From NCBI GenBank assembly GCA_020847555.1, contig JADLBT010000484.1:1-35640 (forward strand): a stretch of DNA of 35,640 bases. The letters are read 5' to 3'. This document shows positions 53 to 20,424 of this stretch, piece by piece. The stretch's first letter is position 1; the number at the start of each line of letters is the position of its first letter. The stretch comes from Gemmataceae bacterium. Its GTDB lineage: Bacteria > Planctomycetota > Planctomycetia > Gemmatales > Gemmataceae. The notes under the pieces were generated by a model. That model made no database searches, was not told the origin of the DNA, and saw nothing but the letters and a program-made list of their open reading frames with translations. A program made the position numbers and the translations under genes.

Positions 53-78
53 CGGTCCCCTGGACCAGGGACGGTCCC

Positions 79-1198: not shown

Positions 1199-1212
1199 GC
1201 GCGTCAGGCCCG

Positions 1213-1276
1213 CGGGACACGCCCCGTGGGTCAAGCGGCGGGGACTTCGCCCACGGGGCGCCACCCGTGGGCCTTG
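1213..1276. repeat. Palindromic repeat, family A (one degenerate plus one intact hairpin)
   Basis: The intact hairpin pairs GCCCACGGG (1249-1257) with CCCGTGGGC (1264-1272). The left part keeps only the right arm of the first hairpin (CCCCGTGGG around 1222-1230) and the spacer GGCGGGGACTTC, which also occurs in the copy at 5052-5125. The element ends about 25 nt before the start codon of the tubulin-like gene. Confidence 0.8.
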
Positions 1277-1298
1277 AGATTTGACAGGGGTTGATTGC

Positions 1299-4200
1299 AT
1301 GCCCGCCGACACGACCACGACCGCCCCCGAACAGATCGCCGCCTACGTCGCTCCCACCCTGCTCATCGGCCTGGGCGGTAGCGGCAAGGACGTCCTGCTC
1401 CGCATCCGCCGCATGTTCTACGAGCGCCACGGCCGGCGCGCGGACGGGTCGATCGGCTTCCCCATCGTCGGCTACCTCGCCCTCGACACCGACCCCGGCG
1501 CGTTCGAGCGCCTGGAGGGCGACAGCCCCGGCGACTTCGTCCTGCGCAACATCCAGTTCAAACGCGGCGGCACCCCCGAGGCGATCGACTGTACCGTCGA
1601 GCCGCGCCAGCTCGAAGATTATTTCCGCGGCGGCGAACAGAGCTACCCGCACATCTTCCGCTGGCTGCCGCCGGAGATGAAGCGCTTCGGCGCCAACGGC
1701 ATCGTCGGCGGGGCCGGCCAGAACCGGCTGTTCGGGCGTCTCGCCTTCTTCCACCACTTTCCGATCATCGCCCAGACGCTCCGGGCACGCATCAACCAGA
1801 TCGTCACTGACGCGACTCTACCGCAGCGCCGCGCGCAGTGGCAGGCGGAGCTGCGCCGCCCGCTGCGCGTCAATCCGCGCCGGCTGGAGGTTGTCCTCGT
1901 CTACTCGCTCGCCGGCGGCACCGGGGCCGGCATGTTCCTCGACATGGGCCTGCTCGTGCGTCACCTCGTCGAGCGCGATCTGAACCTGCCGGACGTGCAG
2001 CCATTCTTCACTCACTTCGTCCTCACGCCCGAGGCGTTCGTGCAGGAGGCGGCCGAGGGCACGCGCAACGTCGTCCTCACGCCCGACCAGCGCCGCAAGA
2101 TCCAGGAGAACGCCTTCGCCTGCCTGCGCGAGATGGAATACTTCTCGATGCGCCCCGGCCGGTCGTTCGACCTGTCGCTTCCGCCGCCTGTCTCCGGTCC
2201 CGGGGTTCCACTGAGCGACGCCGCCGAGCCGTGGTATCGGGTGCAGTGGACGCTCGACGGGCCGTGGCACGAGGTCCACAGCTCGCCGTGGGACACGTGC
2301 TACCTCGTCGGCGCCGGCAACGACAACATGGGCAGCGGGTGCCTGCCGCCGTCCGAGATCTATCAGATGGTGGCCGAGCGGCTGTTCCTCCACTTCGACG
2401 GCGGGCAGTTCGCGCTGAAGGACCACTCCGAGCGCAGCAACATCGTGGACCGGACGCTGCACGCGATGCGCGACAAGGTGCGCGACAACAGCAAGGACCG
2501 GCTCGGCGACGTTCTCTACAGTCACTACCTGAGCAAGCGCTTCAGCACGTTCGGCCTGGCCCAGGTGTATTTCGACCGCGAGCGCATGCGCCGCGCCGCC
2601 GCCCACCGCCTGGCGTGGAAGCTCGTCGCCGAATGGTGGCTGCGTCAGGCGGACCTGCCGCCGGTCGAACTGGCCCGGATGGCGACGGAGGATCTGGCCG
2701 GCGGCGTCGGTGGGCAGGCCGCGGCGGTGACGCAGACCGGCTATCCGGCCGACCCACAGGTGGGGCTGAGCTACTCCGCCCTGCGCAACCAGATCCTGCT
2801 GGAGAACCGCGAGTCGGACCGGCGGCGGACGTGGTTCCAGGTGTTGCAGGAGGACGAGAGCGTCCGCCAGCGCGACGTCGAGTCGGGCCGGCACGACGCC
2901 GACCCGGTCGGGGCCGTGCGGCCGTTCCTGCAGGCGCAGCTGCTGCGCCTGAAGCGCGAGCGGCAGAGCAAGGGCGAGACGGGTCTGGCGGTGCGCAGCT
3001 TCGAGCGCAACCGCCGCACGCTGGAGCCGGAGATCGACGCCCGGCTGCGCTGCCTGTTCCTGCATCGCCTCGATCAGCTGGGCGTGCGCGGAGCGCGGCA
3101 GCTGTTTGAGGAATACGCCAACCTCTACCGCGGCGAGCTGGAGCGGGCCGGGCAGATGGTCGAGCTGACGCGCTCGACGCTGCCGCCGTGGGAGGACCGC
3201 GTCCTCGACGCCCAGCGGCTGCCGCTGCAGTATTACGCGCGCGTGGCGGTCCGGGCCGAGTTGCTGCGGGCGACCCGGCAGGCGTGCGACCACCTGCAGA
3301 AGACGTTCCATCACGAGGCCATTGCCGACATCCGCCTGTGCCTGGAGCAGGTGCAGCGGCAGGTTGCTCCGGGCGACCGGCAACACTCCTGCGCCGACCG
3401 GCTGCGGCACCTGCAGGACATACTGGGCGGGCAGACCGACGCGGTGACGGGGGTGCAGCACTACCTGGCCCGGCGCTTCAACGAGCTGCGCGAACCGGCC
3501 GTCTCGCACGGGCGGACGATCGGCCTGCTCGATCACCTGACCGACGTGGCGTACGACGCCGGCATCCGCCAGCTGCTCGCCCCGCACAGCCGCAGTGCCG
3601 GCCTGGACATGGCGGAGGTCGGCCCCGAGATCGAGCGGCGCGTGCTGGAGCAACTCCGCGCCCTGCGCGAGGAGTGGCGGGACGCGAACGGGCTCGGCGG
3701 TCTGGCGCTGGCCCTGCTGCGCGGGGGCGAGCTGCCGCCGCAGACGGTCGTGGACGACCTGGCTCGCGACCTGGCCGTGGCGTGCGAGGCGCTGCTGACG
3801 AGCTTCGCCGCCGACACGTCCGCCCTGGAGCAGTTCAACAGGGACGCCGACCGCAAGAAGGTGCGCCTCGACTGCCTGCGCATCTACTCCGGCGTGTTCC
3901 TGCGCCTCGCGCGCACCGGCGACGCGCAGGAGATCGACGCGCCGACGGTCCGGCGGCTCGGCGTTGCGAGCAGTAAAAGCGCCGCCGCCGAGGCGTTCCG
4001 CCGCGAGCTGGAAGCCGGTGGTGGGCACGGGCTGGTCGGTCTGCAGCCGTTCGACATCGAGGACGACACGCTGGTTGTGTACCAGGAGAAGACGGGCATC
4101 CCGCTGTGCTACTACCAGGAATTGGAGGGGATGGCCCACCTGTACTACGACTCGCAGCGGCAGAAGGAGACGCACTTCGACTACAACTTGCTGCGCGGCC

Positions 4201-5033
4201 GGCTGCCGGACATCCGCCGCGTCGATCAGGACCGGCAGAAGCACCTGGCGGCGTGCCTGGAGCTGACGCTGTACGGCATCATGACGGGCATCCTGAGCTA
4301 CCGGGAGGAGCGCGGCCAGCGCTGCTTCTGGCTGGAGAGTCACAGCGAGTTCGGCGGGGCGCTGCCGCTGCCGCTGGGCGAGCAGTTCGAGACGGTCGTC
4401 AACCGGCTGGCCGAACACGAGGCCGACCGTGCCGATCTGCAGACGCAGCTGAACGACTGGCTGCGCCGGGCGGCCGCCCGGCAGGAAGGGCAGCAGGTCG
4501 TGCTGCTCTGGTGCGCCCTTCAGGAGCTGCACGACCTGGTACGCCGGCGCATCGCGGAGCGGGTAGCGCTGGCGGGGCCGACCGGACCGCGCGAGGAGCG
4601 CAACCACCCGATGTATCGCATCCTGACGGACCGCATGTTGCCGGCGGCGCATCGGCGCGTCGAGGGGTTGCCGAACGCGGCCGTCTGGCTGAGCAGCAAG
4701 CTCGATCTGCTGGCGCTCCTGCGCGAGCTGGAGGGCGAGGAGCGCGAGGCGGCGCTGCAGACGCGGCGCGAGCTGCTTGAGGAGTGTTTCCGACCGGTGA
4801 ACGAGGCGCTGCCGATCCCGGTGATCCTGCCGCGGGCTCAGCTGGAGGAGCGGGTGTTCGGACCGATTCTGCGCAGCCGTCACCACGTCGCCCAGCACCA
4901 CGCCCCGGCCCCGCCGGCCGCCCCCGTGCCGCGCGCCCCGTCGCCGCGGCTCGACCTCGACGCCCGCCCCTCGTCGCCGCCCGCGGAGGAGACGCCGTTC
5001 CGGTTCACCGAGGACTACGACGGGCAGGATTAA
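1299..5033 (+). CDS. Tubulin/FtsZ-superfamily protein (Tubulin_2-like), 1244 residues
   Basis: Predicted GTP-binding, possibly polymer-forming cytoplasmic protein. Seen: LLIGLGGSGKDVL at residues 21-33 matches the first glycine loop of the tubulin-like family; ALDTDP follows at 61-66; GGAGQNRLFGRLAF lies at 137-150; and the hallmark tubulin/FtsZ loop GGTGAGM lies at 206-212 after a hydrophobic strand (EVVLVYSLA). The nucleotide-binding domain occupies roughly the first 450 residues. The remaining 800 are charged and largely helical in appearance, ending in a proline-rich acidic tail (about 1195-1244). FtsZ is about 400 residues, so this is a large member of the superfamily. The ATG at 1299 after ACAGGGG is chosen over an in-frame TTG at 1281. 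It is followed after 120 nt by the Hsp70-like gene, in the same direction. Family assignment is good; polymerisation and the role of the C-terminal region are inference. Confidence 0.85.
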   Translation: MPADTTTTAPEQIAAYVAPTLLIGLGGSGKDVLLRIRRMFYERHGRRADGSIGFPIVGYLALDTDPGAFERLEGDSPGDFVLRNIQFKRGGTPEAIDCTVEPRQLEDYFRGGEQSYPHIFRWLPPEMKRFGANGIVGGAGQNRLFGRLAFFHHFPIIAQTLRARINQIVTDATLPQRRAQWQAELRRPLRVNPRRLEVVLVYSLAGGTGAGMFLDMGLLVRHLVERDLNLPDVQPFFTHFVLTPEAFVQEAAEGTRNVVLTPDQRRKIQENAFACLREMEYFSMRPGRSFDLSLPPPVSGPGVPLSDAAEPWYRVQWTLDGPWHEVHSSPWDTCYLVGAGNDNMGSGCLPPSEIYQMVAERLFLHFDGGQFALKDHSERSNIVDRTLHAMRDKVRDNSKDRLGDVLYSHYLSKRFSTFGLAQVYFDRERMRRAAAHRLAWKLVAEWWLRQADLPPVELARMATEDLAGGVGGQAAAVTQTGYPADPQVGLSYSALRNQILLENRESDRRRTWFQVLQEDESVRQRDVESGRHDADPVGAVRPFLQAQLLRLKRERQSKGETGLAVRSFERNRRTLEPEIDARLRCLFLHRLDQLGVRGARQLFEEYANLYRGELERAGQMVELTRSTLPPWEDRVLDAQRLPLQYYARVAVRAELLRATRQACDHLQKTFHHEAIADIRLCLEQVQRQVAPGDRQHSCADRLRHLQDILGGQTDAVTGVQHYLARRFNELREPAVSHGRTIGLLDHLTDVAYDAGIRQLLAPHSRSAGLDMAEVGPEIERRVLEQLRALREEWRDANGLGGLALALLRGGELPPQTVVDDLARDLAVACEALLTSFAADTSALEQFNRDADRKKVRLDCLRIYSGVFLRLARTGDAQEIDAPTVRRLGVASSKSAAAEAFRRELEAGGGHGLVGLQPFDIEDDTLVVYQEKTGIPLCYYQELEGMAHLYYDSQRQKETHFDYNLLRGRLPDIRRVDQDRQKHLAACLELTLYGIMTGILSYREERGQRCFWLESHSEFGGALPLPLGEQFETVVNRLAEHEADRADLQTQLNDWLRRAAARQEGQQVVLLWCALQELHDLVRRRIAERVALAGPTGPREERNHPMYRILTDRMLPAAHRRVEGLPNAAVWLSSKLDLLALLRELEGEEREAALQTRRELLEECFRPVNEALPIPVILPRAQLEERVFGPILRSRHHVAQHHAPAPPAAPVPRAPSPRLDLDARPSSPPAEETPFRFTEDYDGQD

Positions 5034-5051
5034 GTATCTGAAAAGGGAGTT

Positions 5052-5125
5052 AAAGCCCACGGGGCACGTCCCATGGGCCAGGTGCCGGGGACTTCACCCA
5101 CGGGCCGCCGCCCGTGGGCTTTAAA
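5052..5125. repeat. Palindromic repeat, family A (two-hairpin unit)
   Basis: Hairpin one pairs GCCCACGGG (5055-5063) with CCCATGGGC (5070-5078), one mismatch. Hairpin two pairs CCCACGGG (5097-5104) with CCCGTGGG (5111-5118). AAAG and CTTT flank the unit. It fills most of the 120-nt gap between the tubulin-like and Hsp70-like genes and contains an in-frame ATG (5073) that would give a false start for the Hsp70-like gene. Confidence 0.85.
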
Positions 5126-5153
5126 GGGCTCAGACCCGACCAAGGTGAAGGAG

Positions 5154-8100
5154 ATGGCTGACACGCCTGGCCCCCGCGCCTGCCCCGTCTGCGACGTCCG
5201 GTTGCAGGCGTGCTGGCCGTTCCGCGAGGACGACCAGCACTGCGCCCTGTGCGGCCTGCGCATCCTTCGCCTCGCCGTCCTCCCCACCGCGCCCGACGGC
5301 CACGCCTGGCTGTACCGCGAACCGGAGCAGGGGCCGCTCGTTCGCCTGGTCTGGGAGCGCGGCCTCGACGCCCGTCCGGACCGGCGCCAGGCCGTTCACC
5401 CGCTCGTCGATTTCTCCCGGTCCAGCGCGCACTTCGGCGGCGAGCGGCTCACCGGGCTCGATTTTTCTCTGGCGGAGGTGCCTGCGGCCGACGGCCCGCC
5501 CGCGGCCGTGACCGCCCGCCTGCTGCCGCGCTTCCGCGGCTTTGACCGGCTCGACCTCCCGCCGCGCGGCGTGCCCGGCCACCTCGTCATCGCGTCCGCC
5601 CTCGGGACCGAGACGCACGCCGCCCGCCTGCTCCCGCCGGGGCAACCGCCGATCCTCGACTCCCCCGACCCGAGCGTCGTCCAGCGTGAGGGCGGCATCT
5701 GGCAGGCGTACCAGCAGGAGGCCACGGCCGTGGTCCCCCTGCGCCTCACCGTCCCGGTCGCGCAGTGGCTTGTCGGCGTCACGCCCAACTCCGAGCCCGA
5801 CACGCAGAACCTCGTCACCCTGCACGGCCTGGCGGTCCCGCTGCTGCTGGAACCGGGCCGCGCGTACCCGTTCGAGCTGCACGTCAACGCGGCCGGCTGG
5901 GGCGCGTTCGCGGCTCGCGCGTTCACGTTCGTGCTTCACCGCGCCGCCCTCGGTCCGTACCCGCTGACCGGGCGCCTCGCGCTGGTGCCCGGCAGCCGGC
6001 TCCACTTCGGCGGCGGCAGCCCGCGCACCGTCGAGGTACGCCTCGGTCGCCGTGTCCCGGTCAGCCTGCCGCTGGCCGTCATTGACACTCCTGCCCCCCC
6101 TGCCCGGGAAGCCGCGCCGCAGCCGTCCAGCGCCGAAAGCAGCTTCGACCTGATCCTCGACAGCGCCTCGGACCTGGTCGTGCCGGTCAACACGTCGCTG
6201 GCCAACACGTCCCTGACGCTGGTCGAGACCCGGGACCGCGTCGAGGCCGGCATCACCATCACCGACTACGTCGTCCGCCAGGGACCGCCCGGCGAGGCGA
6301 ACGGAGCCGAATGGCTGCGCGTGACGAAGCCGCGGCGCGAGCACCTGCCGTGGCACCTGTCGGCCCAGGCTCCCGATCAGCTCGACCTGGAGGTGGACAC
6401 AACCCAGCTCGACCGCGAGCGCTACACCGGGGCGGTGCTGCGCGGGGCGGTCGAGCTGATCGACTCCCGCCACCGCCGGTGGGTGTGCGAGGTCCAGGCG
6501 AACGTTGGCCGGCCGCCGCGGCTGGCCAGCTTCGTCGCCATCGACTGGGGCACGACGAACTCGTGCGCCGCGTACCGCAAGAGCATCACCCAGGACGAGG
6601 CGCCGCTCTCCGTCTCGTTCGACGAGGAGCAGCGGCAGGCGCCGGAGCTGTTCCCGTCCGACATGTACTTCGAGGATCTGAGCGACCCGCACCACCCGGT
6701 CTTTCTCCTCGGTCACGACGCCGCCCGCCGCGCCCGCGAGCACCCCGAGTGCTGCCTGCGCAGCGTCAAGCGCAAGTTCCAGTTCCTCGACCGCGTTTTC
6801 GTCATGGACGAGCGCCAGCGCGGCCACACCTACCCGACCGCCGAGCTGGCCCGCCTCCTGCTGCGGCAGCTGATCGCGCTGGCCGAGAACACCCTCGGCC
6901 AGGAGATCCACAACCTCGGCCTGACGTTCCCGACCAAGTGGTCGGCCCGGGTCCGGGCGCGTCTGGAGGAGGCGACGCGCCGCCTCGCCGCCGACCTGAC
7001 GCAGGAGCGCAGGCCGTTCGCAGTCACGATCCTGCCGCCGACCATCGACGAGGCCAACGCGGTCGCGATCAACCTGATCGCGTCGGAGCACGGGCGCGAG
7101 GATCTGCCGGAGACGTTCCGCCTCATCGCGTACGACTTCGGCGGCGGAACGGTCGATACGTCGGTGCTGGAGGTGTACCTGCCGCAGGACACGACCGCAG
7201 TGCAGACCCGGTACATCGGCCTGGGCGGCCGCGGCGACTTCGGCGGCGACGAGGTGACGCGGGCGGTGATGACCCTGCTTCGCGATCGTGTCGCCGACGC
7301 CCTGCAGCGGCGCGTGGTCGTCCTCGACCCGGTGACCCACCGCTCGGCTCGGCTCCTGGGTATCCCGCTCGTCGCGGACGGTGAACCGCTGCGCACGGGC
7401 GGTCAGGGGGCGGCCCACCTGTATCAGCTCGGCCGCAAGAACTGGGACGCGCTGTGGAAGATCGCCGAACTGATCAAGATGGACCTGTGCGACACCGGCG
7501 TGCGCCCGGCCGGCACCTCGCCGCGCCCCCAGCACGGGGTTCCGACCGACGACGGGGCGCCGCCGCTCACCCTGAGCGACTTCTCGCTGGCGGCGGCCGT
7601 CGAGGAGGAGGAGCAGTTGCACCTTCAGCGCCAGGGGGACGACCGGCACCCGGTCGTCGAGCGGCTGCGGCCGCGGCTGGCGGAGATCGACTGCCGGGTA
7701 CTCGTCCAGCCCGGCCACGGCGAGGCGGCGGTAGCCCGCGAGGAGATCTGGACGCTCGACCGGGCCCTTGACCCGCTCGACGCCGACACCCGCGACGCCT
7801 TCTTCAAGGAGCTGCACTTCACCCTGGACGAGGCGTGCGACTTCCCGCTGGAGGACATCTTCGAGACGAACGCCGGCCAGCGCTACACGGTGCGCGAGCG
7901 CGTCGAGGACACGGTGCGCGAGCTGCGGACCCAGTGCGACGACCACGGCATCGCCCCGGACATCATCGTGCTGGCGGGCGGCGGTTGCCGGTTGCCGCTG
8001 GTCGCCCGGCTGATGCGGGACTACTTCCCGTCAGATCGCGATCTGCTCCACTACGACCCGACCTTCGCGAAGCGCCAGGTGGCGCACGGGATGGCGAGCT

Positions 8101-8606
8101 ACCTGACGCTGCGGCAGGTGATCGACCTCGACCACCAGCTGGCCCGGTCGGTCGATGTGACGCATCACCCGCTCGGACTGCAGCGGCTGGTGCTCGAGAA
8201 GCGAGTGGCCCGGACGGAGTTTCAGACTGTCGTGCCGGTCGGCGCGCCGCTGCACGACCCGTCCGCGGCCCACCGAACCCGGTTCGCGCCGGCCCAGCTG
8301 CTGACCGCGCCAGAGGGTGGCCGGCGGCTGACGCTGTTCGTGCGCGACTGGCGGCGCGGGCCGCTGGAGTTCGGCCACTTCGACGTGTCGCGCCCGCCGG
8401 CCCCGGGGGCGCCGCCGCTGCCGGGCGTGCCGGGGACAGCCTACGAGGGCGAGGTGCGGCTGCACGGACCGGGGCGGATCGAACTGACGGTCACCCACGA
8501 GGGCGGGCAGTACGGCCCATTTGTCCTGACGCTGGCGGTGCCGGACCCCGAGGCGACGCTGCAGAGCGAGGATCCGCTGGGCGCCGGCGGGCCTCCTCGC
8601 GTATAG
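5154..8606 (+). CDS. Hsp70-like ATPase with N-terminal zinc ribbon, 1150 residues
   Basis: Residues 10-33 hold a likely zinc ribbon (CPVC ... CALCG). Residues 40-455 are rich in beta-type hydrophobic patterns and match no family I know. The Hsp70 nucleotide-binding domain starts near 460: AIDWGTTNS (462-470, phosphate-1 loop), YDFGGGTVD (660-668, phosphate-2 loop) and VLAGGGCRLP (939-948, adenosine motif). All three ATP-binding motifs are intact, so activity is likely. The domain spans about 510 residues against about 380 in DnaK, because of an acidic, proline-containing insertion around 775-840. The last 140 residues look beta-rich and may stand in for a substrate-binding domain; there is no EEVD-like tail. 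The start ATG at 5154 follows GGTGAAGGAG; an upstream ATG lies in a repeat and is rejected. Only 21 nt separate it from the GrpE-like gene, implying a dedicated chaperone/exchange-factor pair. Confidence 0.88.
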   Translation: MADTPGPRACPVCDVRLQACWPFREDDQHCALCGLRILRLAVLPTAPDGHAWLYREPEQGPLVRLVWERGLDARPDRRQAVHPLVDFSRSSAHFGGERLTGLDFSLAEVPAADGPPAAVTARLLPRFRGFDRLDLPPRGVPGHLVIASALGTETHAARLLPPGQPPILDSPDPSVVQREGGIWQAYQQEATAVVPLRLTVPVAQWLVGVTPNSEPDTQNLVTLHGLAVPLLLEPGRAYPFELHVNAAGWGAFAARAFTFVLHRAALGPYPLTGRLALVPGSRLHFGGGSPRTVEVRLGRRVPVSLPLAVIDTPAPPAREAAPQPSSAESSFDLILDSASDLVVPVNTSLANTSLTLVETRDRVEAGITITDYVVRQGPPGEANGAEWLRVTKPRREHLPWHLSAQAPDQLDLEVDTTQLDRERYTGAVLRGAVELIDSRHRRWVCEVQANVGRPPRLASFVAIDWGTTNSCAAYRKSITQDEAPLSVSFDEEQRQAPELFPSDMYFEDLSDPHHPVFLLGHDAARRAREHPECCLRSVKRKFQFLDRVFVMDERQRGHTYPTAELARLLLRQLIALAENTLGQEIHNLGLTFPTKWSARVRARLEEATRRLAADLTQERRPFAVTILPPTIDEANAVAINLIASEHGREDLPETFRLIAYDFGGGTVDTSVLEVYLPQDTTAVQTRYIGLGGRGDFGGDEVTRAVMTLLRDRVADALQRRVVVLDPVTHRSARLLGIPLVADGEPLRTGGQGAAHLYQLGRKNWDALWKIAELIKMDLCDTGVRPAGTSPRPQHGVPTDDGAPPLTLSDFSLAAAVEEEEQLHLQRQGDDRHPVVERLRPRLAEIDCRVLVQPGHGEAAVAREEIWTLDRALDPLDADTRDAFFKELHFTLDEACDFPLEDIFETNAGQRYTVRERVEDTVRELRTQCDDHGIAPDIIVLAGGGCRLPLVARLMRDYFPSDRDLLHYDPTFAKRQVAHGMASYLTLRQVIDLDHQLARSVDVTHHPLGLQRLVLEKRVARTEFQTVVPVGAPLHDPSAAHRTRFAPAQLLTAPEGGRRLTLFVRDWRRGPLEFGHFDVSRPPAPGAPPLPGVPGTAYEGEVRLHGPGRIELTVTHEGGQYGPFVLTLAVPDPEATLQSEDPLGAGGPPRV

Positions 8607-8627
8607 CGGCGACAGGTGAGAGTAGTC

Positions 8628-10316
8628 ATGAGCACGCCCCAGGTTCCCGCTCCGCCCCCGACTGCCGTTGCCGAGGAAGTGCTGCTCCGCGCCTGCCTGC
8701 TGGTCCGCCGCTGGTCCGCGGGCGGCACCCCGGAGGACGACTGCACCGCCGCGATTCGCTGGCTGGAGGACGAGCGCGCGGCCGTGGCGCCCGGCCTGGT
8801 GGAGAGGCTGGTGAGCGAGTGCCAGGTCTACCGCCGCGACCTGTGGCTGCAGTACGTCACCGACCCGGCGACGCGCTGGGCGTGGTGGACCGGCGGCGAG
8901 CTGGAGCGGCCGGTCTACGAGGTGCTCCAACCACCGGGCGCGGACGCGAACAAGCTGCGGCTGCGCCGTCCGGCGGCCCTCGGCCCCGTGGAAGTACTCG
9001 ACTTCCTCACGGCGCTGGCCGCGGCCGAGGAAAGGGGGAAACTGGACGGCAAGGCCGCGGCGCTCCGCGGGGTGGCGACTGACCTGCTCTGGGAGGCGGT
9101 TCGCGGCGCGGCTGGCGACGCTGTGGCGCGGGGCGGTCTGCTGGAGCCGTTGCGCCGATTGCGCCAGCGGCACCGCGGCGATCAACTTCGCGCCGCCGTG
9201 GTGCCGCGCCTCGCCGTCCTCGACCAGCCGCCGCCGGACGGTCTGCGCGACTGCCTGCGTCAGCTCCTCACCGCGGCCGGCGAGGTCGAGGGGTGCCTCA
9301 CCCGGGCCTGTGAGGTACGCCTGTTCCGCCAGTTGCCCGAGGTGGTGGCGCCGTTCGTGCCGCAGACGATATTCGAGTCCGCGCGCGCCGCGGTGGACGG
9401 GCTGCGAGAGGAAGTGACGGGTTCGCAGACCCTCACGCTGCGCCAGGTGTGCGCGCAGCTGGACGGCCTGGGCGAGTTCGCGCGGCTCACCCAGCCGATC
9501 CTCGCTGGTCCCGCCGCCGGCGCGCACCGCCAGTGGGCACGCCGCCTGCTGGAGAACTTCGCCCGCCTCGGGCAGGTGGCACGCTGCGCGCTCGGCGACC
9601 CGCCACCCGTTGCAAGGCCGCCGACGACCGCGAACGAACCTGCTGCGGAACCCCCGCCTGCCTCCGAGGGGGCTGTGCCCGCGCCGGTGTCTCCGCCCGG
9701 GCCGCCGCCCCAGCCCCCGGAAGACGCCGCGCTCGCCGCGCTGGCCGCGACCAGTCCCGCCGCGGAGGCGTTCCTCGCACTGGCTCTGCTGACCGAGGAA
9801 CTGCTGCGCGCGCTGCGCGGAAGCTGGTCTGAGGCGGAGGACGCCGTCAAGGGGCTGCACTATCCCGGCACCCGGTTCCGGCAGAAGGCGGCGCGGGCCG
9901 CGCGGCTCCCCGCGGACGAGCGGGACCGCCAGCTGCGAGAGGCGGCACGGCAGCTCGCCGACGAGTTCGTCAACAAGATCCGCCGGCTCGACGCCCTGTT
10001 GCCCGGGATCGGGAACGCCGCGCTGCCGCCGAAGGCTCCGGCCCACGTCTCCGCGCAGCACCGCGAGCAGCTCAGGGCGGTGCGCGGCCGGGTCTTCCAG
10101 ATCATGCGAGACCACGGCGGCTACGAGGAGTACCCGGTGGCGGTCGGCGACTCGGTCCGCAAGCATGGTCCGGTGCTCGACGACGTTGTCTACGTGGCCA
10201 ACTCGCGCTTGCGCCCAGATGAGATCGTTAATGTCCTCGAACCTGGATACGTGCGCCGACGCGAGGACGGACGGGCGGAACTGATCCGCTCGCCGAAGGT
10301 GGTGGTGGCCCGCTGA
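8628..10316 (+). CDS. GrpE-like C-terminal domain protein, putative partner of the Hsp70-like protein
   Basis: A protein of 562 residues. The last 115 residues resemble GrpE: a helical stretch with NKIRRLDALLPGI (about 449-461), then VAVGDSVRKHGPVLDDV, and the signature-like end DEIVNVLEPGY (P539 G540 Y541) and SPKVVVAR. In GrpE the corresponding pattern is a Gly-Tyr turn followed by a final hydrophobic strand, in the beta wing that opens the Hsp70 nucleotide cleft. The N-terminal 320 residues are helical, charged and unrecognised; a proline-rich linker covers about 324-365. GrpE is normally about 200 residues, so most of this protein is additional. The ATG at 8628 is preferred to an in-frame GTG 12 nt upstream. 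Position directly after the Hsp70-like gene supports the exchange-factor role. The GrpE similarity was judged by eye, so certainty is moderate. Confidence 0.68.
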   Translation: MSTPQVPAPPPTAVAEEVLLRACLLVRRWSAGGTPEDDCTAAIRWLEDERAAVAPGLVERLVSECQVYRRDLWLQYVTDPATRWAWWTGGELERPVYEVLQPPGADANKLRLRRPAALGPVEVLDFLTALAAAEERGKLDGKAAALRGVATDLLWEAVRGAAGDAVARGGLLEPLRRLRQRHRGDQLRAAVVPRLAVLDQPPPDGLRDCLRQLLTAAGEVEGCLTRACEVRLFRQLPEVVAPFVPQTIFESARAAVDGLREEVTGSQTLTLRQVCAQLDGLGEFARLTQPILAGPAAGAHRQWARRLLENFARLGQVARCALGDPPPVARPPTTANEPAAEPPPASEGAVPAPVSPPGPPPQPPEDAALAALAATSPAAEAFLALALLTEELLRALRGSWSEAEDAVKGLHYPGTRFRQKAARAARLPADERDRQLREAARQLADEFVNKIRRLDALLPGIGNAALPPKAPAHVSAQHREQLRAVRGRVFQIMRDHGGYEEYPVAVGDSVRKHGPVLDDVVYVANSRLRPDEIVNVLEPGYVRRREDGRAELIRSPKVVVAR

Positions 10317-10322
10317 GGGGAC

Positions 10323-10330
10323 AAAGGAGG
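10323..10330 (+). promoter_or_regulatory. Strong Shine-Dalgarno-like sequence without a usual start codon
   Basis: AAAGGAGG is the best ribosome-binding-site match in this junction, yet no ATG, GTG or TTG stands at the normal distance. The codon seven bases downstream is ATC (10338), in frame with the following gene, and a hairpin repeat begins at 10332. The site may have lost its start codon when the repeat arrived, or it may use a rare start. Confidence 0.4.
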
Positions 10331-10331
10331 A

Positions 10332-10379
10332 AGGACGATCGAGACCCACGGACGGCGACTCGTGGGCTTTGATCGTCCT
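10332..10379. repeat. Hairpin, probable diverged family A repeat
   Basis: AGGACGATC (10332-10340) pairs perfectly with GATCGTCCT (10371-10379), and inside it CCCACG pairs with CGTGGG, giving 18-nt arms with three mismatches. The core matches the CCCACGGG...CCCGTGGG family, but the outer arms are unlike other copies. It sits between the GrpE-like gene and the zinc-ribbon/Ig-like gene. Confidence 0.7.
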
Positions 10380-10412
10380 CAGTACCGTGCCGGCGAGCGA
10401 ACGGGGACCGAC

Positions 10413-12443
10413 GTGCCGCGCTACTGCTTCTGTGCCCCCGATCAGCCCCCCTGGCCGGCGCGCCCGGACGACCGCTACTGCGCCCTGTGCGGACGCGAGT
10501 TGCTGGCCGTCGTCCCGCACACCCCTCTCCTGGGCGCGGGCTCTCCGCCCCTCGTCGTCGCCTACCTCCACGCCAGCGAGAGCTTCTGCGCCGGCACCTT
10601 CACTCTGGATCTGACCGGCCTGGTCGGCGCCGCTCCCGGCGTTCACTGGGAGCCGCTGCCGGGTCCGACCCTCGACCTGCTCGACCACCGCCTCGTTTCG
10701 CCGACCGCCCTGGAACTGTCTCTCTGGTCCGACGCCACGCCGGAGCCGAACGCGGGCTGCGCCCTGCTCACCGTGACGCTGCACGGGCGACGGTTCCCGT
10801 TCGAGGTCCGGGCGTATGTCGTGACCGAGCCGCGCTGCCGGACGCGCCTGAGCCTGGGCGGCAAGGACGAACCGTCCGGGTCGCTGCTGGTCATCGGGCG
10901 CGACCTCGGGCGGACGACGACATACCTGGAGTTCGAGCCGGGGCCTGGCGTCCCGGCGGCCTGGGGGGAGATCCACTGCGATCACCCGGCCGTCGCCGTT
11001 ACCCCGCTCTATCCGCGCAAGGCGCAGGCGCCCGCCCTGGCCGAGGTGCGCTGGGATCCGGCGTGGCTGCGGGCCGACGGCGAGGTCGAGGAGATCCTCT
11101 TCCGGGTGCGCCCGCGCGCGCTGCCGGAAACCGTCTTCCGCCAGCGCGTCTGCCGGCGGCTGCGGCGGCCCCTGCGCTTTCAGCCCGCCGTCCTTGCCAT
11201 TGACAGCCTTGCCGAGGACGCCCCGGAAACCCGCCTGGTCCGGCTGACCAACGAGGACACGCGCCCCGTGGTCATCCGCGAGGCCGTTCCGCAGGTGCCC
11301 TGGATCCCCGGCGTCGAACTCTCCCCCGCGACCCCGCTGCGATTGCTGCCGGGGGAGAGCGCGACGCTCCTGCTCAGCCTGCACTTCCAGGAACGCACCC
11401 ATGTCCCGCCGCCTTACGAGGGGACCATCGGGCTGGCACTCGCGGGGCGTGCCGGCCTCACCTACCCGGTCCGGGTCGAGGCCGTGCGTCCGCCGCAGCG
11501 GCTCGCCGGCCCGCTGCTGATCGACCCGGGGCCGCCGCGCGTCGTCCTGGCGAACTGGGAGGCCAGCTGCCGGCGCGTGGCCTACCTTCCGTCGTCGGGC
11601 GACGGTGGGATCGCCCCCGAGGATCTCGGCCTGTCCCGCCGGGACTACGCCGAGGCGGTCTACGGCGTGCGTCCGGCGGCCCCGGTGCTGCGCTTCCTCG
11701 TCGCCGCCGCGCGGACGCGCTGCCGGCTGCGCGATCGTCTGGAGGTCGGCGCGGTGCGCCTGTGCCGCCAACCGTGGGTGCCGGTCGATTTCGCCGCCGA
11801 CGGGGTGGAGGTGAGCGACCCACACGGGCACGCGCCTGCGGGGACGCGCGTCGTTCGGTTCGACGTGTGGAACAGCTACCTGTGCGCGGGACCGGGGTCC
11901 GAACCCGTCCCGCTGCTGCTGCCGGGCGAGGCGGCGCCGGCGCCGGGGTCCGGCGCGCTGCGCTGGCTTGGGCAGCGCTATGCCGAGGCACTCCGGACGC
12001 GGCGGCGGGCGGTGCCGGTCGAGATTGAGGCCGCCGCCCGGGGCGCTGACCTGCCCCCCCACGCCCTGTGGATGCGCCTGGCGTGCGAGGCGCTGGCCCT
12101 CGATTATCGGTGGGGGCCGGCCTACGCCTGGCGGCGCCTCCTCTGCGCGTGGCGGGCGGAGATGCCGGACCTCGGCCCACCCCCGTTCACCCCGGTCGTG
12201 GCCCACCTTCACCTGACCATCTGCGCCGCCGACTACGCGCGGCAGGTCGGCGCGGCCCTGCTCCGGCAGGGACTGGCGGAAGCGGCCGGCGGGGTGGCGA
12301 TCGTCGGCCCGCTTTTGCATGGGCGCCTTTTCGCCGACGTGCTAAGATCCATGCTCGGCTCGGGCGGGCTGGGCGCGGCGTGCGTCGCCGCCTCCTGGGC
12401 CGAGTGGTTCGCGCCGCCCGCGGCCGCCACGGAATCCGCCTGA
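10413..12443 (+). CDS. Zinc-ribbon protein with Ig-like beta region, unknown function
   Basis: A protein of 676 residues. The N-terminus has CFC (C5, C7) and CALCG (C23, C26), a probable zinc ribbon closely resembling that of the Hsp70-like protein two genes upstream (DDRYCALCGREL here, DDQHCALCGLRI there). Residues about 230-365 alternate hydrophobic residues in the manner of Ig-like or ASPM-SPD-2-Hydin-type beta sandwiches (LVRLTNEDTRPVVI; LRLLPGESATLLLSLHF). The C-terminal 300 residues contain helical, arginine-rich stretches and an Ala/Gly-rich end that I do not recognise. No signal peptide is seen, so it is probably cytoplasmic. The GTG at 10413, preceded by GGGGA, is taken as start, because the in-frame sequence upstream lies in a hairpin repeat. 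Given its position it is probably an adaptor within the tubulin/Hsp70/VWA cassette; that is inference. Confidence 0.75.
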   Translation: MPRYCFCAPDQPPWPARPDDRYCALCGRELLAVVPHTPLLGAGSPPLVVAYLHASESFCAGTFTLDLTGLVGAAPGVHWEPLPGPTLDLLDHRLVSPTALELSLWSDATPEPNAGCALLTVTLHGRRFPFEVRAYVVTEPRCRTRLSLGGKDEPSGSLLVIGRDLGRTTTYLEFEPGPGVPAAWGEIHCDHPAVAVTPLYPRKAQAPALAEVRWDPAWLRADGEVEEILFRVRPRALPETVFRQRVCRRLRRPLRFQPAVLAIDSLAEDAPETRLVRLTNEDTRPVVIREAVPQVPWIPGVELSPATPLRLLPGESATLLLSLHFQERTHVPPPYEGTIGLALAGRAGLTYPVRVEAVRPPQRLAGPLLIDPGPPRVVLANWEASCRRVAYLPSSGDGGIAPEDLGLSRRDYAEAVYGVRPAAPVLRFLVAAARTRCRLRDRLEVGAVRLCRQPWVPVDFAADGVEVSDPHGHAPAGTRVVRFDVWNSYLCAGPGSEPVPLLLPGEAAPAPGSGALRWLGQRYAEALRTRRRAVPVEIEAAARGADLPPHALWMRLACEALALDYRWGPAYAWRRLLCAWRAEMPDLGPPPFTPVVAHLHLTICAADYARQVGAALLRQGLAEAAGGVAIVGPLLHGRLFADVLRSMLGSGGLGAACVAASWAEWFAPPAAATESA

Positions 12444-12516
12444 CGGCAGCACACCCCGCGCCGCTTTCACTCCCCATCCGCCGGCGCCGCAGGTCGAGCG
12501 CCCCGACGAGGCTCCC

Positions 12517-15500
12517 ATGACGCGCATCTGCTTCTGTTTGTCCGGGCTGCTGGCGACGCTCGTCACCCTGGCAGGTTCCGCGTCCGCCCAGCAGCAGCCG
12601 GGGCCGAAGGACGAGCCCGACCGGCCGCACGACCTGATCCTGGCAGTGGACGTTTCGCGCAGCATGCTCGGCACGTACCGCAACGGCACCCTCCCGGCCA
12701 ACGACCCGGAGGGCATCCGCTGGGACGGCATTCAGTTCCTCATCGACGTGGCCCGCGACCACGACCGCATCGCCCTGGTCCTGTTCCGCGCCGAGAACGA
12801 GGTGCTCACACGTTTCATCGACGCGAAGACCGGGTTCGTCACCCTCGGCCGGCGGTACGACTGGGACGGCCAGCCGCGGACCGGGCGGGAACTCCTCAAG
12901 GAGCTGGTTGCGGAGGTCCAGCGGCGCGAGGCGAAGCTCGTCGCCCGTATCCGGGAGCGCGAGGCCCGCAAGGAAGTCATCACCGACGCGGACTACCGCG
13001 ATTACACCCTCGATTTGTTCGCCAGGCACCCGCGCGGCAAGAAGATCACCCTCGCCCACGGCACGGCATCGCTGCTGGCGCTCGAGCGGATCCGCAAGAC
13101 GCTCTTGCCGGAAGCCGGCAAGGACGGAGCCCGCGCGTGGACGATGCTGTTCACCGACGGCGAGGAGGAGGCGTGCGCCGAGGGATGGGGCACGCAGTAC
13201 GCGACGAAGGACTACGCCTACATCGACCAGCGCAAACCGCTCCGGGGTGAGCAGCTCGAGGCCTGGGTCGGCGAGCGGTGGGGTAAGCCGTTCCGCGACC
13301 GCGGGGTGCCGATCATCGCGTTCGGCCTCGGCAAGAGCTGCGACCGTCCGCTGCTGCGCAGCCTCGCCCGCACCTCGACCGCGGCCGAGCGCCAGCGCTA
13401 CGGCGCCAGCTACGAGCCGGAGACGAACCTCGACCTGCTGAAGGATCTGCAACACCTGCTGTGGGAGCTGCGCGAGGCGTGGCGGCTGGAGGTGCCGCGG
13501 CGGGTGCCGGCCCCGGGGCGGGAGATCTTCAGCGTGCCGGGGGTCGGGCTGTGGGACGACCTCGGCGTCCTGGTCTACCGCGAGCCGGTCGGACCGCGGC
13601 CGCGCGCCCTCGCCCCGGACCCTGCCCACATGAAACCGCCGTGGATCGGGACCGCGGAACTCGCCGCCCTGAAGCCGCGCGTCGGCCGTTCGCACTGGTA
13701 CTACGCCCTCTCGCGGGAGACGCTGACCGGCCTCGGCGCTCCGCGCGGCAGCCTGGAACTGAGCGTCGTCCGTCCGGCCGCGCAGCACGACGACTACGTC
13801 ACGCGCTGCATCGCGGCCATGCGCGCAGGGGTGGCGTTCCGGTACACCGGCCCCGGCCCGGACGAGCGCCCGCTTTACACGCCGCGCGACCTGATCCCGT
13901 TCGAGGTGGAGTTCACGCCGCCGCCGCTACCCGCCGGCGCCAGCCCGTTCCAGGCCGAGGATTTCAAGGTCGAGGTGACGGTCACCCCGGTCGGCGGCCG
14001 GCCCGAGACGTTCGAGCTGGAGTTGCAGCCGGCCGGCGCGGGACCGACGCGCACCTTCCGCAACACCGGCAAGGTGCTGGACGGGACCGCCGCCTCGTCC
14101 GGCGCCAGCCCGTTCGTCGGGTCGTGTCATGTCGATGTCACTGTCACCGGGGTGCGCGGCCCGCTCGCGGGCGCCCGGCGCCGCCTGATCCGCCGCACGC
14201 TGGAGATCGGCCCTTACCCGACGCTGCGCCTGCCCGCGGCGCTGGAGCTGACCAACGCAGCCGGCTCGGGCGAGGCCGCGCTCGATCTGACGCTCGCCCA
14301 GCGCACCGCCCCGGACGGACTGCTGACCGAGACAGATGTCGCCCTCAAGGAGTTGCCGTTTTCGAGCAAGGCGGCGGTGCCGCGCGCGGCCCTCCGACTG
14401 CCGACCGGCAAGCTGGCCCTGCGCGGCAAGGGCGAGGTGCTCAGGGTCGGGTTGACGCCCGAGGCGTGGGCGCGGCTGCCGGTCGGCGTCTACAAGTACG
14501 GCGTGATCGAGGTGCGGCTGCCGTGGGAGCAGAAGCCGACGCGGGTCGGCCTGATGGTGCGCAAGGATCCCTACCCGCTCGCGGCGCAGCCGAACGTGTT
14601 CCGCCTCGACATGGCGGCCCGGAGCCGGGGCAAGCCCGCGACAAAGGAGGGCGCCGGTCCTTCGCGCCGGATCGAGGTGGAGGTCGAGCTGAAAACGCCG
14701 CTGGCGACGGCCGAGCCGATCTGGCTCAGCGCCGCCCGCACGGAGATCTGGCAGGCGGACGCGGCCGAGTGGAAGGCCCGCAAGGAGCCGGACCGGGTGG
14801 ACTTCACGCAGGTCGAGGACGCGAGCGGTCGGCGGCTGAAGGAAGACGCGGGGACGCCCGCGACCATCCCCTTCCGTGTCGCGGGGCTCGGTCCGGATCA
14901 CGCGAAGCCGGCCCTCGGCGCGGGCGGGCGGCAGAAGGCGCTCCTGGCGCTGACGCTGGCCCCGCTGGCGGCGCTGCCGGGCGGCGGGTTCGAGCGCGTC
15001 TTCTACCTGGTCGGGCCGGGCGCCGTGCCGACGCCGGTGACGATCCGGGTGGTGGTGAACGCGGTCAGTCTGCACGACCGGACTGGCGAGCCGCTCGACC
15101 AGCTGTTCCTGCTCGGCCTGGCCGGTTCCCAGGTCCGGCACACCCTCACCTTCACCGCCAACCGGCCGGGCGCCCAGGTCAAGCAGGTGCGCGTCAAGCC
15201 GGGGTACGAACCGCTGCGCAACGTCTCCCTCAGGGGCTGGGACCGGCTTCCGCTCGCGGCGCACCTGGTCGTGGGGCGCCGCGACCAGGCGATGGTGGAT
15301 CTCGGGTCGGTGCCGTGGTGCGTGCAGCCGGGCAAGTACCGGACGGAGGTGACCTTCCTGGTGGACTACGCCGACGGTGGCGAGGACCGCTCGCTGGAGG
15401 TGGCGTTGCCCGTCTACACCGAGGTGCTGCACAAGGGGGTGCGCTTCCAGCACGGCGACCACGAACTCCACGGCCCGCTGCGGCTCCGCTTCCCGGCGGA

Positions 15501-17286
15501 CAAATGCGCCGCGTTCGCCGAGGCGCCGTTCCAGCTGCTGACCGACGCCCGCGAGATCCCGGTGCGCTGGCGAGCCAGGCGGGTGGCGGCCAAGGGCGGC
15601 GCAGGCAAGCTGCTCGGCGCGAACGAGGGCGAGCTGGATCTGCTGTTCGGCGGCGCGTCGGTACTGACGCGCGGCGGGCCGAGCGATCCGCTCAACCGCG
15701 ACAACCTGGTGTCGCTGACGGTGCGGCTGGCGCGGCGCGGGCTCGCTCCGGGCGTGTATCGCGCCGCGCTGGAGTTCCACTCGTTCGAGCACGACCCGAA
15801 GCTGCCGCTGGACAAGGCCGAGCCGGCCGGCGTGGCGGACACGCTGGCGATCGAGGCGGTCGTTCCGGGCCGCCAACTCGACGCGGTCAGAGCCGGCCCG
15901 AGCCCGTACCTGGGCGAGAAGGGCAAGGTCCACGCGACGCTGACCTGCCACGACTGCGACCCCGGGCCGGGCGAACTGCGAGCGCTCGACGGCGCCGGGA
16001 ACCCGACCGGCCCGCCGCTGCCGGTGGGCCAGGCGGAGCGGGTCGAGTCCGACCCGGCCGTGCCCGGCGTGAGGTACTACCACTACGCGATCGAAGTCGA
16101 ACCGGCGAAGGTCGGCAAGAACGGGTATCAGCTCTCCTGGCCGGGGCTGTGCCCGGGCGACCCGGCCCAGGCCCGCGCGGTGACGGTCGAGGCGTTCGGC
16201 GTGATCGAGGTCAAGCATGACGTGGTGTCCGTCGGCGAGGAGGTACTGATTCACGCCCGCATTGACCCCGCGAAGGCGCCCGAGGGCGGCTCGCTCGTGC
16301 TGCACGTGCTCGACACGGCCGACCGCGCGGCCGGGCCGGTGGAGGTGACCCTGCACGACGACGGCAAGACCGAGAGCGGCGACGAGCGGGCCGGAGACGG
16401 TGTCTGCACGGTACGGCACCGCTTCGCGGGGGCTGGCGTCTACGAGATCGTTTACCCCGAGGCGGGCGGGCCGGGGCCGCTCCGGCCGCGCACGGTGCGC
16501 GCCGATTACGAGCTGCAACCGCCGGACCGGCTTGGGATCCTGGAGTACGGCAGCGGCGACCGGCTGCGCTGGCTCGGCATCCGCGAGGATCTGTCCGACC
16601 CGTCGGCCGCGCGGCTGACGAATCGGCGATCGGAGCGGCTGCGCTGGAAAGCGCGGCTGCGCTTCCCCAAAGGCGGCGCCGAGGCGAGCCAGGTCACCGA
16701 ACGCAACATCGACACCCTGCCCGCCGCGCTCCAGCCCGATCCGCGCCACCACCTCGACGCGCGGCTCATCGCGGAAGGGGCTGGCAACGAGGCGGGCAAG
16801 GAGTGGAGCGCCGGCGGGGTGCTGGTACGCGACCAGACGCAGGAACTGGGCTTCGAGGTGAAGCTGCCGCAGCCGGCCCTCGACGAGGTGTACGGTGACA
16901 GCGCGGCGGGGGCATCGCACCCGACCCTCGGCAAGACGAGCGCGGTACTGCTGGAGGTCGAGCTGGAGTGGCTGGACAACAACGAGCAGGTGGTGGCGCG
17001 GCGGACGATGCGCATGCCGGTCGCGGTCGCGACGCGCCACTGGGCGATGAACCCGAAGCCGTGGATCCTGGGCGGGCTCGGTGTGGTGGGGTTGGTCGTG
17101 GCGGCGCGCCTGTTGCTGCGGATGAGGCGCCGGAGTCCGAAACTTGAACCGGCGACCGCTGCGGCGCCCGAGATGCTTCCCGCCGGTCCGCAGGCAGCGC
17201 CTCGGCCCGAACCGCCGGCTCCGGCGCCGCGGAAATACACGCTGCCCTCGTCGGGCGGCGACGACCTCCCGGAGCACATGCGGTGA
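12517..17286 (+). CDS. Large secreted VWA-domain protein with C-terminal membrane anchor
   Basis: A protein of 1589 residues. A signal peptide (residues 1-24, cleavage after SASA) leads into a VWA domain (about 38-330). Its metal-binding MIDAS motif is intact (DVSRS, D45/S47/S49), with TDGEE at 213-217 as the later acidic element. The long middle is beta-rich, with repeated sandwich-like modules. Residues about 1236-1320 resemble the choice-of-anchor X type module (VVSVGEEVLIHARI ... VTLHDDGKTESGDE). A single TM helix (about 1515-1537) is followed by RMRRR and a 50-residue proline-rich cytoplasmic tail, so most of the protein faces the periplasm. The ATG follows GAGGCTCCC, 73 nt after the previous gene. 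As last gene of the cassette it is the obvious envelope partner for the cytoplasmic tubulin-like and Hsp70-like proteins; ligand and binding partners are unknown. Confidence 0.88.
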   Translation: MTRICFCLSGLLATLVTLAGSASAQQQPGPKDEPDRPHDLILAVDVSRSMLGTYRNGTLPANDPEGIRWDGIQFLIDVARDHDRIALVLFRAENEVLTRFIDAKTGFVTLGRRYDWDGQPRTGRELLKELVAEVQRREAKLVARIREREARKEVITDADYRDYTLDLFARHPRGKKITLAHGTASLLALERIRKTLLPEAGKDGARAWTMLFTDGEEEACAEGWGTQYATKDYAYIDQRKPLRGEQLEAWVGERWGKPFRDRGVPIIAFGLGKSCDRPLLRSLARTSTAAERQRYGASYEPETNLDLLKDLQHLLWELREAWRLEVPRRVPAPGREIFSVPGVGLWDDLGVLVYREPVGPRPRALAPDPAHMKPPWIGTAELAALKPRVGRSHWYYALSRETLTGLGAPRGSLELSVVRPAAQHDDYVTRCIAAMRAGVAFRYTGPGPDERPLYTPRDLIPFEVEFTPPPLPAGASPFQAEDFKVEVTVTPVGGRPETFELELQPAGAGPTRTFRNTGKVLDGTAASSGASPFVGSCHVDVTVTGVRGPLAGARRRLIRRTLEIGPYPTLRLPAALELTNAAGSGEAALDLTLAQRTAPDGLLTETDVALKELPFSSKAAVPRAALRLPTGKLALRGKGEVLRVGLTPEAWARLPVGVYKYGVIEVRLPWEQKPTRVGLMVRKDPYPLAAQPNVFRLDMAARSRGKPATKEGAGPSRRIEVEVELKTPLATAEPIWLSAARTEIWQADAAEWKARKEPDRVDFTQVEDASGRRLKEDAGTPATIPFRVAGLGPDHAKPALGAGGRQKALLALTLAPLAALPGGGFERVFYLVGPGAVPTPVTIRVVVNAVSLHDRTGEPLDQLFLLGLAGSQVRHTLTFTANRPGAQVKQVRVKPGYEPLRNVSLRGWDRLPLAAHLVVGRRDQAMVDLGSVPWCVQPGKYRTEVTFLVDYADGGEDRSLEVALPVYTEVLHKGVRFQHGDHELHGPLRLRFPADKCAAFAEAPFQLLTDAREIPVRWRARRVAAKGGAGKLLGANEGELDLLFGGASVLTRGGPSDPLNRDNLVSLTVRLARRGLAPGVYRAALEFHSFEHDPKLPLDKAEPAGVADTLAIEAVVPGRQLDAVRAGPSPYLGEKGKVHATLTCHDCDPGPGELRALDGAGNPTGPPLPVGQAERVESDPAVPGVRYYHYAIEVEPAKVGKNGYQLSWPGLCPGDPAQARAVTVEAFGVIEVKHDVVSVGEEVLIHARIDPAKAPEGGSLVLHVLDTADRAAGPVEVTLHDDGKTESGDERAGDGVCTVRHRFAGAGVYEIVYPEAGGPGPLRPRTVRADYELQPPDRLGILEYGSGDRLRWLGIREDLSDPSAARLTNRRSERLRWKARLRFPKGGAEASQVTERNIDTLPAALQPDPRHHLDARLIAEGAGNEAGKEWSAGGVLVRDQTQELGFEVKLPQPALDEVYGDSAAGASHPTLGKTSAVLLEVELEWLDNNEQVVARRTMRMPVAVATRHWAMNPKPWILGGLGVVGLVVAARLLLRMRRRSPKLEPATAAAPEMLPAGPQAAPRPEPPAPAPRKYTLPSSGGDDLPEHMR

Positions 17287-17975: not shown

Positions 17976-18038
17976 CGGGCTCCCTTCGCGCTGTCCTGGC
18001 GGATATGCGTGCCCGCCGCTAGATCCGGGTCAACGCGC

Positions 18039-18095: not shown

Positions 18096-18106
18096 ACAAG
18101 AACGGG

Positions 18107-18730: not shown

Positions 18731-18752
18731 GGGTTCTCCTCCCCGTTTCCGT

Positions 18753-20321: not shown

Positions 20322-20353
20322 GGTACACCTCTTTGGGAGGGTCGTTCGATCAA

Positions 20354-20416: not shown

Positions 20417-20424
20417 TCTCTCCC

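Follow-up and report, generated by a model that had tools for sequence, protein, structure and literature searches.

A Gemmataceae operon that places an FtsZl1-family tubulin beside an Hsp70-type ATPase, a GrpE-like protein and an anchored vWA protein

The tubulin-like proteins of the FtsZl1 family are encoded alongside vWA proteins, GTPases and kinases as well as OmpA and TM proteins, and a role in membrane remodelling has been proposed for it (Makarova & Koonin 2010, PMC2875224); according to the portions of that text used here, some of the partner GTPases carry a DnaJ-type cysteine-rich domain (PMC2875224). In systems with GAP1-N2 and DO-GTPases, tubulin together with vWA makes up one theme (52%) and Hsp70 together with GrpE another (14%), the two being described as non-overlapping (Kaur 2020, PMC7159879). 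The overview of the same paper presents a class uniting GTPases, tubulin homologs and an Hsp70, its detailed section places the tubulin and Hsp70-GrpE themes in actinobacteria and firmicutes, and the DO-GTPases are described as bearing zinc ribbons (PMC7159879). In Synechocystis, mutants of sll0445 (Tubulin_2), sll0446 and sll0447 were impaired in phototaxis, the encoded proteins were placed in putative complexes with pilus assembly proteins, and sll0446 and sll0447 were called FtsA-like and DivIC-like, respectively (PMC9880817, in the passages on these genes); this impairment is the sole Tubulin_2 phenotype that we met in the literature looked at.

We analysed a stretch of 35,640 nucleotides from a Gemmataceae bacterium (hereafter the window), in which six genes lie in a row on one strand (+, 869–17286), with intergenic gaps of 10–83 bases between the longest open frames and coding-like codon composition in 6 of 6 genes. 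A preliminary description made from the sequence had named five of them, and this composition (Tubulin_2, Hsp70-type, GrpE-like, zinc-ribbon/beta, and a secreted, anchored vWA protein with MIDAS residues) was borne out; the sixth, a three-TM gene directly before the tubulin, had been overlooked. The genes are, in order:

869..1198, + strand: small membrane protein of 109 aa with three TM-like segments, candidate anchor/coupler (hydropathy; GC3 0.96)
1299..5033, + strand: Tubulin_2/FtsZl1-family protein with intact GTP-loop signatures (ORF opens at 1281)
5154..8606, + strand: zinc ribbon, beta region and Hsp70-type ATPase (ORF opens at 5073)
8616..10316, + strand: helical protein with a predicted GrpE-type C-terminal domain at residues ~451–566
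10362..12443, + strand: zinc-ribbon and beta protein, apparent paralogue of the N-terminal part of the Hsp70 protein, without the ATPase domain
12517..17286, + strand: giant secreted vWA protein of 1589 aa with a signal-like N-terminus, MIDAS, a C-terminal TM segment (1515–1536) and a short inside tail

Gemmataceae bacterium relatives show 79% identity in the tubulin and 62% in the GrpE-like protein, and relatives of 65–79% identity lie on metagenome contigs. A DUF3501 gene (window 1–684; E 1.8e-38) stands immediately 5′ of the operon. Minus-strand genes at 17337–21795 converge on it from the other side and comprise an ECF sigma factor, a gene of 207 aa, a Ser/Thr kinase and a TPR-FHA protein; since kinases are known FtsZl1 partners, this group may or may not belong to the operon. 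A 52-base direct repeat (90% identical; 1–52 and 20365–20416) flanks the operon and its kinase neighbours. Elsewhere in the window, the minus strand of 27296–34537 holds a MacB/FtsX permease with weakly HlyD-like and OEP-family genes, resembling an ordinary tripartite efflux set, and 25054–26043 encodes a DUF1559 protein with a type IV pilin-like N-terminal methylation motif.

The window tubulin matched the Tubulin_2 profile (PF13809) at E 1.7e-51 (176 bits against a cut-off of 27), and its predicted structure is the tubulin/FtsZ fold with the GTP-loop present, in agreement with the tubulin-type fold that the preliminary description had proposed for 1299–5033. The T7 loop, which drives GTP hydrolysis, was not identified in these tubulins; the stretch inspected contains one invariant Asn. 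In the Hsp70-type protein (5154–8606) all three Hsp70 nucleotide-binding motifs are intact, and its ATPase domain aligned profile to profile with DnaK at E 1.9e-22 (hhalign); as a single sequence the protein scored slightly under the Pfam cut-off. It is not DnaK itself, given 37.1 bits against a cut-off of 822.55 for the NCBIfam DnaK equivalog. The 16 Hsp70-type sequences compared (window included) span six phyla (Planctomycetota, Latescibacterota, Gemmatimonadota, Caldifarciminota, Acidobacteriota and Pseudomonadota), and all 16 keep the four zinc-ribbon cysteines and the two phosphate-loop motifs unchanged. A DnaK-type substrate-binding domain was not detected when the C-terminal profile was compared with the C-terminal part of DnaK (2 of 100 shuffles scored as high), leaving unsupported the earlier claim that a chaperone pair acts on the tubulin. 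A by-eye reading that had such a domain present was dropped, its alignment to that part of DnaK being no better than shuffles. No relatives of the Hsp70-type protein were found in viral contigs, and Pfam gave no DnaJ match in the five long window proteins.

The C-terminal fold of the 8616–10316 protein is by prediction GrpE-type, and its N-terminal ~350 aa are helical. Pfam GrpE did not match the window protein, and matched 3 of 95 neighbour genes of relatives at E ≤ 0.01; the L008 protein exceeded the Pfam cut-off of 25.8 with a score of 26.3, although its match lay in the coiled N-terminal part. Profile A3, built on this GrpE-like family, aligned weakly on its own (hhalign E 0.012), and a PDB profile search with it returned no GrpE among its matches. 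With a local profile of canonical GrpE, the score of the window protein was reached by 21 of 790 background genes; the proteins of L001, L002, L012 and L044, taken singly, did not rise above this background, their scores being reached by 215, 46, 317 and 574 of the 790. The top three background scores (L054, L008 and L070) belong to genes placed after an Hsp70. The input to our pooled GrpE test was 11 proteins from the operons together with 5 of the 11 A3 relatives, with the L002 stretch stopping 25 residues before its end; left out were the motif-less downstream genes of L005 and L041 and one ORF of L007, another L007 ORF than that one having the GrpE motif.

Over its first 390 residues the 10362–12443 protein can be aligned to the zinc-ribbon/beta region at the N-terminus of the Hsp70 family (30.2 bits), and its zinc-ribbon DNA is 81% identical over 42 bases to that of the Hsp70 gene (repeat D4). 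From these alignments it looks like a copy of the Hsp70 zinc-ribbon/beta module without the ATPase. We found no homologues of it in loci L001–L146, where most modules have a ZnR-beta-propeller protein that the window lacks, so that its earlier casting as a zinc-ribbon/Ig adaptor is unsupported. The propeller label comes from above-cut-off Pfam PQQ matches in L054 and L070, and the planctomycete ZnR proteins of L001–L003 matched a propeller-family profile built without them (E 6e-14, 2e-8 and 4e-11). The window operon itself encodes beta-rich proteins, and there were no Pfam FN3 matches in its five long proteins.

The giant vWA protein of the window has a signal-like start, DxSxS at 45, T183, TDG at 213–215 and a single TM segment at 1515–1536, and the MIDAS residues (DxSxS/T/TDG) are present in 4 of 4 window-type giant vWA proteins. 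Its assignment rests on this motif pattern, on its topology and on a PDB profile search in which a TRAP-type vWA matched weakly (E 0.0063), since none of six proteins scanned singly (window, L001, L003, L008, L012 and L044) had a Pfam vWA match above cut-off. Other phyla have a different vWA protein of 516–632 aa that precedes the tubulin, usually with the TM gene in between; it carries MIDAS residues and a C-terminal TM segment (11 of 11 for each). A relaxed vWA pattern, which misses this TDN-type family, matched 7 of 1,077 genes. Homologues of 869–1198 lie directly 5′ of the tubulin in L001, L002 and L003 (E 1.2e-8, 3e-4 and 2.7e-5), and a related 3-TM family takes the equivalent place in other phyla, making the 3-TM protein, on its position and predicted topology, the best candidate for the membrane coupler. 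In L008 the member of this family carries a trypsin-like domain (PF13365), and L004 and L010 have a similar layout. The envelope link drawn in the preliminary description gains support from the anchored vWA protein together with the 3-TM gene next to the tubulin.

A module of ZnR-beta-propeller, vWA-TM, 3-TM, tubulin, ZnR-Hsp70 and GrpE is kept across five phyla (Planctomycetota, Latescibacterota, Acidobacteriota, Pseudomonadota and Caldifarciminota). The giant planctomycete vWA gene comes after GrpE, whereas the other phyla have theirs 5′ of the tubulin; in L041 and L070 the Hsp70 is at the opposite end of the gene set. Among the carriers of the module, L044 belongs to an Azospirillum isolate. 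Its retention as a unit by relatives in several phyla makes the set look like a genuine envelope machine, not a chance cluster. On the earlier question of whether all five genes co-occur and keep their order, the linked set is conserved across phyla; the 10362–12443 gene is unmatched in L001–L146 and the vWA position varies. Independent scattering of the homologues, or a protein at 1299–5033 without the tubulin fold, had been named beforehand as grounds for rejecting the cassette; neither came true, since the linked set is conserved and the tubulin fold is real.

We tabulated components over the 17 loci with the special Hsp70 (window, L001–L005, L007, L008, L010, L012, L019, L033, L041, L044, L054, L070 and L171), counting the window TM and vWA proteins by their own sequences, planctomycete vWAs by that of the window and the rest by profiles for which most of those rows had supplied training sequences. 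GrpE was called in 13 of the 17 (uncalled in L005 and L041; L004 and L033 end before its position), vWA in 16 (missing in L007), the small TM protein in 14 (missing in L005, L041 and L007, which starts inside the tubulin) and the ZnR-propeller in 15 (missing in the window and L007); these absences are soft because many of the genomes are fragmented draft assemblies. A longer stretch of the L041 contig, L173, gave a GrpE match at 0.01. L171, from genome G661 and outside the training of the component profiles, has all six genes on a single strand in the sequence ZnR-propeller, vWA, TM, tubulin, Hsp70 and GrpE (E 3.6e-11, 1.7e-32, 0.0021, 1.5e-103, 5.4e-68 and 2.7e-9), with one additional small ORF separating tubulin from Hsp70. 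Other untrained matches were the TM protein of L002 (5e-6) and the GrpE of L007 (7e-5). A second tubulin operon of G661 (L172, G661:C16) has ZnR-propeller, vWA, TM and tubulin, with no full Hsp70 adjoining.

The wider sample comprised 80 tubulin loci from GTDB genomes; these were the best 80 of 463 relatives and included many from Janthinobacterium and cyanobacteria. An Hsp70 was called immediately downstream of the tubulin in 11 of the 66 loci with at least 2.5 kb downstream, by a profile trained on several of those loci; an earlier profile, A2, made from the window Hsp70's own relatives, recovers 10 of the 11 (E 3e-4 or better), and the eleventh, L019, joined through clustering. The other 55 of 66 had no such call, yet three of them do have an Hsp70: L007 carries it in an overlapping frame, and L041 and L070 at another place in the locus. 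These counts bear on whether Hsp70-GrpE is a mere folding aid with no part in the work of the tubulin. Very large proteins are hard to fold and Hsp70s are common helpers, and this operon encodes two very large proteins, of 1,250 and 1,589 aa. We nevertheless regard this explanation as very unlikely, as most other FtsZl1 loci show no Hsp70 immediately downstream and the Hsp70 here bears a zinc ribbon and beta region of its own, with a DnaK-type substrate-binding domain undetected.

Linkage was also followed genome by genome. Among 95 genomes of the family of G001 (the L001 genome, a Fimbriiglobus MAG), Tubulin_2 is common (76 genomes at E ≤ 1e-10), and a close Hsp70 (E ≤ 1e-100) was found in G001, G002 and G003; a close tubulin (E 0) occurs in exactly these three, adjacent to the Hsp70. 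Only the Hsp70 side of this linkage is independent, because the three genomes had been found by their tubulin. A fourth Hsp70 match, in G388, was weaker (9e-13), and 73 further genomes have distant tubulins alone (3.4e-41 or weaker). Over 294 planctomycete genomes, none of 12 weaker Hsp70 matches lay beside a tubulin in the fetched stretches (4.8–19.9 kb), except in G046. In Acidobacteriota (297 genomes) Tubulin_2 is rare (12 genomes), and the search with profile A7, scoring two candidates per genome, returned mostly ordinary DnaK (293 of 297 at E ≤ 1e-30). The Hsp70 matches listed that start before profile position 300 came from G009, G680, G661 and G640, all of them among the 12 Tubulin_2 genomes and three with the match on the same contig as the tubulin; G009 (L054) and G680 (L041) had contributed training rows, G661 and G640 had not.

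A quick tubulin tree was made from 54 tubulins, with 27 of the 80 loci dropped as near-duplicates and kinase-fused paralogues absent; long branches make it unsure. The window and L001–L003 form a starred group on it. In a starred set of 16 tubulins, 13 have an adjacent Hsp70, and the remaining three (L006, L009 and L025) sit on short contigs, L025 with 3 kb downstream of the tubulin free of Hsp70 and the other two showing less. The Hsp70-bearing L054, L041 and L070 fall outside this 16-member set. The Hsp70 label is clustered, taking 7 changes where shuffled labels took 14.6 (none of 200 shuffles reached so low a number), and on this tree the Hsp70 link is not a single gain (at least 4 changes). 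Elsewhere among the Tubulin_2 loci, L141, L142 and L143 are tandem pairs of other Tubulin_2 genes outside the module, from three G001-family genomes. Genes that are MotA/ExbB-like and OmpA/MotB-like and match ZorA and ZorB occur at L008:15735–18020, L010:17542–20016 and L024:13264–15495 (two Latescibacterota and a cyanobacterium), a pairing of Tubulin_2 with an ion motor.

The spread of the Hsp70 in the G001 family is patchy (at E ≤ 1e-10 it matched in 4 of the 95 genomes, strongly in 3), as might suit a conflict (defence) system. The vWA protein and variable beta domains would there detect an invader, with the NTPase setting a threshold and the tubulin/Hsp70 assembly acting as effector. Kaur 2020 counts GTPase systems with tubulin and with Hsp70-GrpE among conflict systems (PMC7159879, sections used here), and ZorA-like and ZorB-like genes follow the module in two Latescibacterial loci (ZorB1 E 3.5e-22 and 6.2e-23). 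However, the ZorA and ZorB profiles are of MotA- and MotB-type, which ordinary relatives can match, and PADLOC found no ZorA/ZorB motor genes among P0001–P0005 of the window operon. PADLOC over 95 neighbour genes (25 of 90 families listed, many unspecific) was used for ZorA/B alone. The five window proteins gave no PADLOC match at E ≤ 0.1 and no recognised nuclease or toxin family (Pfam), and we consider the conflict explanation unlikely.

Cluster c1 of the neighbour genes (26 of 80 loci), common to cyanobacterial and Latescibacterial tubulins, looks MotA/ExbB-like. Together with the phototaxis defect and putative pilus-assembly complexes of sll0445–0447 (PMC9880817), this could speak for a surface-motility, pilus or transport machine, in which a surface vWA adhesin would be linked to an envelope motor or pilus through the tubulin assembly. 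We judge this quite unlikely for the window, where Pfam recognised no pilus or motor genes in the operon; the passages of PMC9880817 on the Synechocystis genes likewise name no Hsp70-GrpE.

Our preferred reading, held tentatively and at somewhat less than an even chance, is an envelope-anchored tubulin assembly switched by a dedicated pair of Hsp70-type ATPase and GrpE exchange factor. The tubulin would assemble against the membrane's inner face, where the 3-TM protein and the cytoplasmic vWA tail would hold it. The Hsp70-type protein, docked onto the complex by its zinc ribbon, would serve as a nucleotide switch altering the assembly state of the tubulin, and the GrpE-like protein would reset this switch via ADP release. 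On the outside, the vWA protein would sense or bind a target through its metal site and relay the signal inward; the resulting output may lie in membrane remodelling, adhesion, transport or defence. Hsp70-GrpE may in this way stand in for the DO-GTPase and GAP1 of the related published systems; a switch is preferred over a folding helper because the zinc ribbon of the ATPase echoes those of DO-GTPases. A bolder version, which we find doubtful, has an ancient cytoskeletal machine in which ATP-driven Hsp70-GrpE, not a GTPase, builds or breaks a membrane-tethered tubulin assembly in response to an external, metal-dependent vWA receptor, with a MotA/OmpA-type motor in some phyla. The role of FtsZl1-type tubulins has been a guess since 2010, and a compact module in which outside sensor, membrane coupler, tubulin, ATPase switch, exchange factor and propeller scaffold each have their slot makes it directly testable. 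If true, the preferred reading would give an example of a tubulin-related protein driven by a dedicated Hsp70 machine.

How new is this arrangement? The preliminary description knew of no described system with this composition, which holds for the whole and not for its parts: operons with FtsZl1 and vWA are in print, as are tubulin or Hsp70-GrpE systems centred on GTPases, and in the main texts of the open full-text literature we found no paper that puts Tubulin_2, vWA, Hsp70 and GrpE into a single operon. Some of these families may figure in the supplementary gene lists of the 2010 paper. We found no DO-GTPase/GAP1 Pfam match at E ≤ 1 in P0001–P0005, P0010 and P0014, nor in ten further genes of the window at E ≤ 0.01; for the 95 neighbour genes, the Pfam tally covers the top 25 of 129 families. 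In the module genomes, GAP1-N2 (PF20013) occurred in 1 of 9, G003 alone (contigs C269 and C31, the operon being on C120), and DO-GTPase2 (PF19993) in 1 of 10, G001 alone (contigs C240 and C183, the operon being on C116).

Compared with the DnaK-GrpE pair, the proteins here share the Hsp70 nucleotide-binding domain and the predicted GrpE-type C-terminal fold, and differ in the extra zinc ribbon and beta region, the undetected substrate-binding domain and the 350 aa helical N-terminus of the GrpE-like protein. The sll0445–0447 genes resemble the window in having Tubulin_2 with adjacent genes, whereas Hsp70-GrpE is not named in the passages on them (PMC9880817). With the Kaur systems, as described in the sections used here, the operon shares tubulin-vWA, Hsp70-GrpE, an N-terminal zinc ribbon on the NTPase, and membrane and beta-rich partners; it differs in that both themes stand in one operon, in other phyla, and in that no DO-GTPase/GAP1 was found beside the window operon. 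Given this last difference, the operon would work like the Kaur kind with a different switch, while by its tubulin it belongs to FtsZl1. Within the FtsZl1 operons the window tubulin is a clear member, and common to both are a secreted or anchored MIDAS vWA partner and lineage-specific TM proteins; OmpA-type partners occur in some FtsZl1 genomes and likewise in relatives of this lineage. A word search of the main text of PMC2875224 gave no Hsp70, DnaK or GrpE, whereas in the window both an Hsp70-type and a GrpE-like gene follow the tubulin. Judged by gene content, this lineage joins the published tubulin and Hsp70-GrpE themes in one operon and is a variant of the FtsZl1 envelope systems.
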